A stretch of 64,000 nucleotides of DNA from Thermococcus sp. Its GTDB lineage: Archaea; Methanobacteriota_B; Thermococci; Thermococcales; Thermococcaceae. The position numbers and the translations under genes are program-made. Position 1 is the first letter of the stretch; each line of letters starts with the position of its first letter. Location: positions 1 to 64,000 of the forward strand of contig NZ_JACDNS010000007.1 in the NCBI RefSeq assembly GCF_017656495.1, read 5' to 3'. Under the pieces are notes generated by a model. It was given only the letters and a program-made list of their open reading frames with translations, did no database searches and was not told the origin of the DNA. Below, piece after piece: positions 34,003 through 38,594 of the stretch.

Positions 34003-34570
34003 ATGAAGGGTAGCAAAATAACAGTTCTAATGCTTCTCTTCCTTCTTACTCTCCCTGTAACTCTTGCGGATGATGATTATGAAGAGGATAGAGCAGAGTT
34101 CGCTGGACTGGCTGAGGCCGGCTTTGTGCTCATAACTATTGGAGTATTATTCTATTCTACAGTGAAGAGGACGTCATTCATAGACTTCAGAAAAGGAAAA
34201 ATTAGCATAGCAATAAGTCCAGAGATGCCTTTTCTTAAGGGTTAGAGCACCTATAACGCCTCTCGGGGTTCATCAGATACTTGCTATTGCTGGCTCATTA
34301 CTTACAGTGCCCCACTTCCTCTCATGCCAAGACTACACAACACCATTTGGGATTACTGGACTCCTCCTTGGAGTATCTCTGCTTATAGAGAACGTCAGCG
34401 GGTTTTATGGACGCTACCTCCATGCAAAAATAGAGAGACTTAGGGTGAAGGTAGATAACCCTCTGCTCAAAGAGCTCCTTAAAAAGTTTAGACTATGGAG
34501 AAAGCTTCACATCACATGGACAGTGATCATGTACCTTCTCTTAGCACTCCACGTTGCCCTTGCAGACTGA
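34003..34570 (+). pseudogene. small membrane protein with two HX13H helices, broken by a frameshift
   Basis: Two frames join into one protein of about 188 aa if one extra A near 34238 (in cttaaggg) is ignored: ...PEMPFL then RVRAPITPLGVHQILAIAG. Layout: signal peptide (1-23), helix 1 (AEAGFVLITIGVLFYS), a short loop, helix 2 with HQILAIAGSLLTVPH, helix 3 (GITGLLLGVSLLIENVSGFY) and helix 4 with HITWTVIMYLLLALH. Both His pairs are exactly HX13H, the spacing for two stacked haems in ferric reductase/cytochrome b-type proteins. GGTGGTGTAG precedes ATG 34003. Its end overlaps the convergent FTR1 gene by 44 bp. Confidence 0.6.
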
Positions 34571-35390
34571 GCTGGGGCTCTTTTTTATAAGCCCTTATCA
34601 CGAGGTGGAGAGCAAACACCATATAACCAGACTGCAAAATTAATCTCCCCCACTCCATTTTTGTTGAATATCCAAAGAGCACCGCAAATATTGAGCCCAC
34701 AGCACCTTTGTGATACCAGATGCTGTCTTTAGGAATTCCTAAGTCGTAAGCTGTTTGGGCAAACCAACCTAAGCTTATCCCCTCTTCTTCGGCAAATTCA
34801 ATGAGTTCGTGTGTTCCATAGCCTAAAAGTCCAGCGGCAACGAATATCAGGAGTATTGAGCTGTAGTAGAAGAAGGTCCTCATGTTAATCCTCATTCCAA
34901 TACCATAGATGAGATAGGCCAAGCCTAAAGCTCCAGCCAGCCCTAAAATCAAGCCCAATAAAGTACCACCTAAGTCTTGAGTTGCAAACGGTGTTAAAAA
35001 TAGTACAGTCTCTAAGCCTTCTCTAAAGACAACTATGAATGTGAAAGCTGTCAAAGCCAGGGGATTTATTGCCTGAGACACTTTGCTCTCTATCTCCTCC
35101 TTTATGTTCGCGCCCTTAGTCGCCATCCAGTATATCATGCTCGTCAAGACAATGACAGCTAAATATGATGCCAGTCCCTCAAAGAGCTCTTTCTCCTCCA
35201 GTCCGCCATAGATTTTAAGAACTGCTACCCCAAGGGCGAAGCTCGCCAATACTGAGAGCCCAAGTCCCATCCATACGCTTTTAATTTGCTGTTCTCTTTT
35301 TGTCCTCTTCAGGTATGCTATGATAATTGCCACAATTATAGCGGCCTCAAGTGCTTCTCTAAAGGTTATCAGGAAGGCTCCAATGTTCAT
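34527..35390 (-). CDS. FTR1 family iron permease
   Basis: A 287-aa protein with seven membrane helices. It has two REXXE iron-binding motifs, REALE (residues about 10-14, FLITFREALEAAIIVAI) and REGLE (VVFREGLETVLFLTPF), as in FTR1/EfeU high-affinity iron transporters. GGAGGTGCTAATCC precedes ATG. It may import Fe, and the convergent neighbour with haem-type histidine pairs would be a suitable reductase partner. Confidence 0.88.
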   Translation of the reverse strand: MNIGAFLITFREALEAAIIVAIIIAYLKRTKREQQIKSVWMGLGLSVLASFALGVAVLKIYGGLEEKELFEGLASYLAVIVLTSMIYWMATKGANIKEEIESKVSQAINPLALTAFTFIVVFREGLETVLFLTPFATQDLGGTLLGLILGLAGALGLAYLIYGIGMRINMRTFFYYSSILLIFVAAGLLGYGTHELIEFAEEEGISLGWFAQTAYDLGIPKDSIWYHKGAVGSIFAVLFGYSTKMEWGRLILQSGYMVFALHLVIRAYKKEPQLSLQGQRGVLREGT

Positions 35391-36918: not shown

Positions 36919-38256
36919 TCAATCCCTCCAGTCCAAAAGTCTCTTTTCCCCTTCAAGCTTTCTAATTTCAGTAACATCTTGAACAACTTCAAGAGTTCCC
37001 AAGTACTCACCGTTCTCGTCTCTCACAGCGAAGTAGCGGATGTGTATGAACCTTCCGCCCATTTGAATCCAGAATTCCGCAACATCTTTTCTGCCTTCTT
37101 TAAATGCCTTGAGAATTTTGTTAACTATATGAACGCTCTTTGGTGGATGGCAGAGCTGCACAGGTCTTCCGATTATCGAGGGTGTCCTCGTAAATATTCT
37201 GTCTCCACCAGAGAAAAACCGTACTCTGTCGTCTTTGTCTATGAATGTTATATCAACGGGAAGGTGTTTGAATATTGCGTCTATTTCTTTTGGCGAGAGA
37301 TATCCGATATCAAGCTCTAGATCACCTTCCCTCTTTACTTTTGTCTTATCTTCCTCAAGCTTCTGTCCCCTAAGTGCCATCTGGACTTCCTTTGGCAAAC
37401 TTAGGATTTGTTCTGCTGTTAGGGTTGTGTCAATCTCGTAGGGGTGCAGGGGCTTAGCTTTTGGCCTCCATTTATTTCCAGGCCTAACTTTGTAGTATCC
37501 CATAGCATCTTCCTGCTGTCTTATAGCGACCCATTCTCCCTCGGAAAGCAGAGCTTTTAGTGTTGGATAGAGTATGTTGTTCTCCCTGAATATCATGTCA
37601 ACTAGAGCTCTTGAAAGTTCTGAAGCTTTTTCTTTGACCTTCTTCACGAAGTCTTCCCAATCCATTTTATTTTCTTTATTTAATATCTCAATTAGCTGCT
37701 TTATCATCGCTCTTATTTCATCATGCTTTGTCCAGAGGACTGTTGGGACGGCTGTAATACCCCTCCTCTCAAGGTAAGGGAAGAGCAGCATCTCCTCCCT
37801 GTTGTAGTGAGTGAATCCAACAGCCCTGAGCTGGTTGGCTATTCCTTTGAGAACTCCAAGGAGTTCCTTTCTCATCTTTTCATCTTTTGTGTTGGCTAAA
37901 GTTGAAGCGTAAAGATTAAGCATCTCTGCATCTTTCATGATCTCTTTGTTCTCTTCATAGAGTGTGTGGAGAGGATGACCCGGAGGAATATCACTCAGCT
38001 CTTCCTTCTCAGCTCCAGAAACTGCTTCTCTGAAAAGCTCAACGTGGATGTCGCACATCTTTGCGATTTCTCTCGCAGAAATACCCTCTTTAACAAGCTC
38101 CTGTTCAATGAGTGGTATTTCTAGCGGTGAGATGCTTCTCAAAAGCTCTTTAAACTCTTCCTTGAGCTTTTCAACGTCTTCTCCTTTGTGGATTTTCTTC
38201 AAAAGCTCTTTCATTTTCTCTTTCTTATACTCACGATTTTTCAAGATTTCAGTCAT
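36919..38256 (-). CDS. DUF438 - hemerythrin-like - PAS domain protein
   Basis: A 445-aa soluble protein. Residues 1-75: DUF438-type helical region ending AREIAKMCDIHVELFREAV. Residues about 90-240: hemerythrin/HHE-like four-helix region with HPLHTLYEENKEIM, THYNREEMLLFPYLE, KHDEIRAMI and ENNILYPTL, whose His and Glu residues could hold a di-iron centre. Residues about 330-440: PAS domain (LPVDITFIDKDDRVRFFSGG to EYLGTLEVVQDVT). Such proteins are thought to sense oxygen, NO or iron. GGTGATAAG precedes ATG 38256. No kinase or output domain is attached. Confidence 0.78.
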   Translation of the reverse strand: MTEILKNREYKKEKMKELLKKIHKGEDVEKLKEEFKELLRSISPLEIPLIEQELVKEGISAREIAKMCDIHVELFREAVSGAEKEELSDIPPGHPLHTLYEENKEIMKDAEMLNLYASTLANTKDEKMRKELLGVLKGIANQLRAVGFTHYNREEMLLFPYLERRGITAVPTVLWTKHDEIRAMIKQLIEILNKENKMDWEDFVKKVKEKASELSRALVDMIFRENNILYPTLKALLSEGEWVAIRQQEDAMGYYKVRPGNKWRPKAKPLHPYEIDTTLTAEQILSLPKEVQMALRGQKLEEDKTKVKREGDLELDIGYLSPKEIDAIFKHLPVDITFIDKDDRVRFFSGGDRIFTRTPSIIGRPVQLCHPPKSVHIVNKILKAFKEGRKDVAEFWIQMGGRFIHIRYFAVRDENGEYLGTLEVVQDVTEIRKLEGEKRLLDWRD

Positions 38257-38594
38257 CTTATCACCTTCATGACACATGTCATATTTAACACTTTTAAATC
38301 TTTCTACACATTTTGGCAATTTCCAAGTTGCTTCCTTTAGGTGGCTTCTTCAGATTTTTGAGGAGCTCCTTATACTTGCTACGAGCAGTTAGATTTTTCT
38401 GCCCACATGGTTCATTCAATTGTTGAGAGATGCACTTACAGCGCTTTTGTTTCAAGAATTTTCTTTCCATTAATATCAACGAGAAACCAAATCCATCAAA
38501 TTTTTTGGCTCTTCAGGACTTGGCTTAGCACAAAATTTAATGTCCTGCATTTTTCTTCAACTTCCCTGTCTCAATTCTTTCAGGTTTTAAGAGG
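38257..38594 (-). other. 338-bp stretch without a convincing gene
   Basis: On the minus strand it holds a 61-codon frame (38294-38479, rich in Lys and Cys, with KQKRCKCI and EPCGQK) and a shorter 24-codon frame beginning MQDIKFCAKPSPEEP. Neither has a good ribosome binding site or recognised domain. It may be remnant sequence between the decayed immunity-like gene and the DUF438 gene. The DUF438 promoter should lie here. Confidence 0.4.

Follow-up and report, generated by a model that had tools for sequence, protein, structure and literature searches.

The 64,000-nucleotide stretch of Thermococcus DNA analysed here (the window) contains, at 34003-34570 on the forward strand, one gene broken by a single-base frameshift. 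Its product, when intact, is rather probably a small membrane cytochrome that holds two haems across the membrane and passes electrons to or from an acceptor outside, plausibly the iron handled by the FTR1 permease, with the haem itself being scavenged. The haem-type reading of the family is well supported by the conservation of the putative ligands in aligned sequences; an iron role of the candidate cytochrome is plausible and held with moderate confidence, and ferric reductase activity would be a guess.

A single gene interrupted by a frameshift

Read in frame 0, the gene extends over 34003-34245 (80 aa) to a stop codon at 34243-34245, and it continues in frame +1 (Table 1). The preliminary description had regarded the two parts as one frameshifted gene with an extra base near 34238. 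There is indeed one extra base, and comparison with the nearest intact relative, G088, which encodes a 95% identical protein of 188 aa in one frame, places it slightly upstream, in the T run listed in Table 1; the repaired gene has ~188 codons. Two separate proteins in two frames are ruled out, because each of the 29 aligned homologues is encoded in a single frame, and the full-length protein is probably absent in this strain.

Table 1. Features of the candidate cytochrome gene and its neighbours in the window
Feature	Position	Strand	Remarks
Conserved soluble protein, 274 aa	33152..33976	+	no Pfam match; C-terminal CxxCPFAKxC; 26 bp upstream of the candidate cytochrome gene
5' part of candidate cytochrome gene	34003..34233	+	homologous to residues 1-77 of intact relatives; signal peptide-like helix (residues 1-22), acidic outer stretch, first membrane helix (about 36-54), start of positive inner loop
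Frameshift	34230..34233	+	four T against three in the nearest intact relative, G088; pairwise DNA alignment
3' part of gene, frame +1	34234..34570	+	three membrane helices with the four histidines; stop 34568-34570
First HX13H helix	34271..34315	+	His90 codon 34271-34273, His104 codon 34313-34315; both invariant in 29/29
Second HX13H helix	34508..34552	+	His169 codon 34508-34510, His183 codon 34550-34552; both invariant in 29/29
FTR1 iron permease	34527..35390	-	PF03239 E=3e-73; REXXE motifs REALE and REGLE; convergent, overlaps the 3' end of the candidate cytochrome gene

The state of a second gene suggests that a dispensable haem function is decaying in this genome and in its sister genome G090. 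An unlinked paralogue of this genome, which belongs to the DUF4405 family, has an HX13H helix and lies outside the window (G000:C7 about 84620-85228, locus L140:521-1128), is also frameshifted; in G090 the present gene is truncated and the DUF4405 paralogue is broken at another place than in this genome, and G088 has both genes intact. That two lineages each have both cytochromes broken, and differently, suggests a reduced need for haem electron transfer. The decay reading, not the cytochrome reading, competes with the explanation that the frameshift is a homopolymer base-calling error and that the gene is intact in the organism, which we consider possible but on the whole doubtful. The difference is one T within a T run, just one of the five codons changed relative to G088 downstream of the shift is non-synonymous, and the syntenic neighbours are full length, all of which would fit such an error, but the broken paralogue and the differently placed lesions in G090 point to real decay.

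Relatives of the gene are found in 39 of 94 Thermococcaceae genomes; the copies in this genome, G090, G073 and G069 are broken or partial. A single-sequence scan of 84,980 species genomes returned no relative, a scan of species genomes with the alignment, whose pattern was narrow, returned only three Thermococcus MAGs, and a profile search of the whole phylum gave nothing convincing beyond Thermococcaceae, its one weak match (E=6e-4) lying in a 609-aa frame.

Four invariant histidines and the likeness to b-type cytochromes

The read-through protein has five histidines, at residues 90, 104, 140, 169 and 183, and the pairs 90/104 and 169/183 both have the HX13H spacing that had been claimed for two of its helices. 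At least two HX13H pairs arise in 0.3% of shuffles, and two pairs with any common spacing of 11-16 in 1.8%; thus, chance is not strongly excluded from the single sequence alone, and it is conservation among the homologues that settles the four-histidine pattern. In an alignment of 29 intact copies (~188 aa, identities to the reference 36-64%), His90, His104, His169 and His183 are the sole invariant histidines, being kept in 29/29 homologues down to ~36% identity. Gly133-Phe134, Gly136-Arg137, Trp165 and Cys108 are further invariant columns of this alignment; no invariant cysteine pair occurs in it. Neither of the two outcomes named beforehand as refuting the preliminary description, poorly conserved histidines and frames that code for separate proteins elsewhere, was observed.

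Averaged hydropathy gives five segments, at 4-22 (signal peptide-like), 36-54, 89-107, 117-135 and 168-186, i.e. the four helices expected from the first inspection plus an N-terminal signal peptide-like one. The stretch that follows the signal peptide carries a net charge of -6.0; the two loops placed on the inside have +3.8 and +8.4, and those placed on the outside -0.5 and -1.0. By hydropathy and the positive-inside rule the histidine helices are parallel, with His90 and His169 near the inner face and His104 and His183 near the outer face. An AlphaFold model built from a five-row alignment was too weak to be informative (pLDDT 68, pTM 0.60), and a Foldseek search of the PDB with it found no cytochrome fold and no match; a sequence search of the PDB with the alignment gave only a chance match to the signal peptide.

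On sequence grounds the protein is best read as a divergent b-type cytochrome that is DUF4405/FezC-like, not a DUF4405 member. When the 29 members were scanned one by one, 14 matched DUF4405 (PF14358; best E=4e-4) and eight matched cytochrome b561 (PF01292; best E=1.3e-3), all below threshold. Two members score, in genome searches, 22.5 and 21.3 bits against the curated DUF4405 cut-off of 26.7 bits, the window protein scores 12.8 bits against the PF01292 cut-off of 30.1 bits, and neither the window protein nor any of the 29 members passes a Pfam cut-off. The invariant His169 and His183 form an HX13H membrane helix of the DUF4405 type, and hhalign against an alignment of thermococcal DUF4405 proteins, which are widespread paralogues with such a helix, aligned the second histidine helix only (W-xxx-H-x13-H, E=0.0024, 23 columns). 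The likeness to b-type cytochromes proposed earlier is therefore upheld as a weak kinship to cytochrome b families together with a bis-haem arrangement of four invariant histidines.

DUF4405 (arCOG04002) has been assigned to the cytochrome b family with a predicted role in electron transfer in Thermococci, which carry several DUF4405 paralogues, one of them fused to cytochrome b5 (Makarova 2015, PMC5898192). A haem-type protein is thus less surprising in Thermococcales than the preliminary description had it. DUF4405 proteins share with the present one the HX13H membrane helix after a conserved W and occur in the same genomes, but the present protein combines two histidine helices in a single chain of four helices, where the thermococcal DUF4405 proteins that were read have one histidine helix; it also differs in its signal peptide and beta-like inner loop, and scores below the family cut-off. 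A bacterial DUF4405 protein and FezC, a protein of the iron organelle called the ferrosome, were purified in a 2024 study and shown to contain haem b (PMC11334425). Compared by its description, FezC is likewise a haem protein of DUF4405-like type that cooperates with an iron transporter (PMC11334425), but it is modelled as a homodimer and encoded in ferrosome operons, whereas the partner here would be FTR1. The ferric reductase superfamily (NOX, FRE, short bFRE and YedZ/MsrQ; PF01794) resembles the present protein in having four histidines in two parallel helices with one helix between them, the canonical ones of PF01794 lying two in TM3 and two in TM5, and in the nearly equal spacing of the inner and outer histidine pairs. 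In NOX2 the haem ligand pairs are 101/209 inside and 115/222 outside (PMC3591440), the same inner/outer pairing as 90/169 and 104/183, which is a likeness in arrangement. Unlike the six-helix PF01794 domain, however, the present protein has four helices plus a signal peptide, and it lacks a flavin/NAD(P)H domain; PF01794 matched neither the window protein nor, among the 25 families listed for them, the 29 members.

The supply of haem bears on the alternative that metal ions (iron, copper or zinc) take the place of haem at the four histidines, in a membrane protein for metal transport or sensing of organisms that have no haem. HemB (PF00490) and HemC (PF01379) are found in 0 of the 94 Thermococcaceae genomes, with positive controls, which confirms the earlier remark on haem synthesis, and seven Pyrococcus and Thermococcus genomes likewise lack haem genes in a published table (PMC3004389); cytochromes c have not been found in these two genera either (PMC4429474). 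Archaeal haem synthesis via AhbD was also considered and rejected as a signal, the matches being unspecific: they occur in every genome, none above the cut-off, and all controls matched too. With HemB and HemC missing throughout the 94 genomes, haem would have to be scavenged, and the proteins, if they carry it, would presumably acquire it by import. This absence, together with the adjoining iron permease gene, would suit binding of metal ions. That explanation is nevertheless improbable in our view, since two parallel helices with HX13H show the spacing of the haem ligands in NOX/FRD proteins, cytochrome b5 domains that are clear (PF00173 E=1e-22) in some of these genomes indicate that haem is probably available, and the related DUF4405 protein and FezC bind haem b.

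Genomic association with FTR1 and with thiol-redox genes

The convergent FTR1 gene with two REXXE motifs was confirmed (Table 1), and its coupling to the candidate cytochrome was examined across the 94 genomes. FTR1 occurs in 41 of them, the candidate cytochrome in 39 and both in 25 (Fisher p=0.0014, genomes not independent). The two genes lie side by side and converge in five genomes, which belong to three genera. In three others the distance is 1.6-4 kb, with peroxiredoxin and FMN reductase genes in between in one of them, G070, and in three further genomes it is 9-18 kb. FTR1 thus lies within 20 kb in 11 of the 25 genomes that hold both, in several arrangements, far above the ~2% expected per genome for about one copy per 2 Mb, with the five convergent cases sharing synteny.

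A second, separate family of haem-type membrane proteins near FTR1 in the same genomes is the DUF4405-cytochrome b5 fusion of Thermococcaceae, which differs from the present protein in having one HX13H helix and an extramembrane cytochrome b5 domain (PF00173 E=1e-22; His49/His63 and the b5 histidines invariant). It occurs in 19 genomes, 18 of which have FTR1 (Fisher p=3e-7, genomes not independent) and 17 the present cytochrome (p=2e-6), and its gene lies within 3 kb of FTR1 in 12 genomes. One or the other candidate cytochrome is found within 5 kb of 20 of the 41 FTR1 genes. We consider the FTR1 link of the present protein to be moderate, and that of the fusion to be the stronger. The suggested coupling to iron uptake is therefore borne out in part: proximity beyond chance and the existence of a second FTR1-linked haem family favour it, but the genes are adjacent in only five genomes, and 14 of the 39 genomes with the present gene lack FTR1. 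As a side observation, the fusion at L070:7868-8473 (+) has 18 relatives, L116-L133 among them, and in G076 a peroxiredoxin gene, an FMN reductase remnant and a gene for a YgaP-like membrane protein stand between the fusion gene and FTR1.

In many genomes the closest neighbours are thiol-redox genes, not iron genes. Many Thermococcus-type genomes have in succession the 274-aa gene, the candidate cytochrome, a thioredoxin-like gene and a converging gene for a membrane protein with a DSINPC motif, and genes for a hybrid cluster protein and a DUF438-hemerythrin-PAS protein lie close to the cytochrome gene in relatives. Such neighbours are the basis of the main rival explanation, in which the b-type cytochrome serves thiol or oxidative-stress metabolism, not iron uptake, and supplies electrons across the membrane for extracytoplasmic disulfide or peroxide reduction, with FTR1 being a neighbour by shared synteny. 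The CPYC thioredoxin-like gene and the DSINPC gene that follow the cytochrome in many genomes would agree with it, as would the nearby genes for hybrid cluster protein, hemerythrin-PAS, DsbD-type, peroxiredoxin and FMN reductase proteins and the 14 genomes that lack FTR1. We nonetheless judge it unlikely, because the proximity to FTR1 recurs in differing arrangements, the second haem family is closely associated with FTR1, and Cys108 is the only invariant cysteine.

The 274-aa protein is found in 58 of the 94 genomes and is about 80-99% identical across the family; its gene is next to that of the cytochrome in the majority of relatives, though not in all of them, and is found in genomes without the cytochrome as well. 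It is ruled out as an obligate partner, since many of the 58 genomes have no candidate cytochrome and it is absent beside several cytochrome copies. A faint match of the protein to the C-terminus of Cas4 (E=0.0013) is below the cut-off. The regular DUF438-hemerythrin-PAS neighbour is represented in the window at 36919-38319 (-), and is possibly a di-iron or redox sensor. At L043:7468-8939 (-) an extracytoplasmic thioredoxin-like protein with a CGP-CTERM anchor is encoded beside a 248-aa DSINPC membrane protein without a Pfam match, and pairs of this type stand near the cytochrome gene in many Thermococcus genomes.

Proposed function and implications

The intact protein, with its signal peptide and four membrane helices, including a parallel pair that bear one HX13H motif each, would work as follows. 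One haem b would sit between His90 and His169 close to the cytoplasmic side, and a second between His104 and His183 close to the outer side, so that a two-haem wire would span the membrane. Electrons would most likely pass between a donor in the cytoplasm, linked to flavin, thiol or ferredoxin, and an acceptor outside, plausibly iron that is handed to the FTR1 permease or comes from it. The haem would be scavenged from outside.

The redox partners of FTR1 known from other organisms are ferroxidases, P19 and flavin/thioredoxin systems. A tentative extension, to which we give little weight at present, is that haem-auxotrophic Thermococcales pair FTR1 with cytochromes built on scavenged haem, namely the bis-HX13H protein and the DUF4405-cytochrome b5 fusion, as its anaerobic redox partner, and that these would be lost together where haem is not to be had.

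To our knowledge, Thermococcales are usually regarded as cytochrome-free. Many of them nevertheless retain, close to an iron permease, membrane proteins in which haem-ligand patterns are strictly conserved, despite having no haem synthesis. Should these proteins bind haem, it must be imported by the organisms, and there would be a testable redox partner for FTR1 in these archaea. A four-helix protein with two haems would, if the reading is true, be a minimal, heat-stable transmembrane electron conductor.
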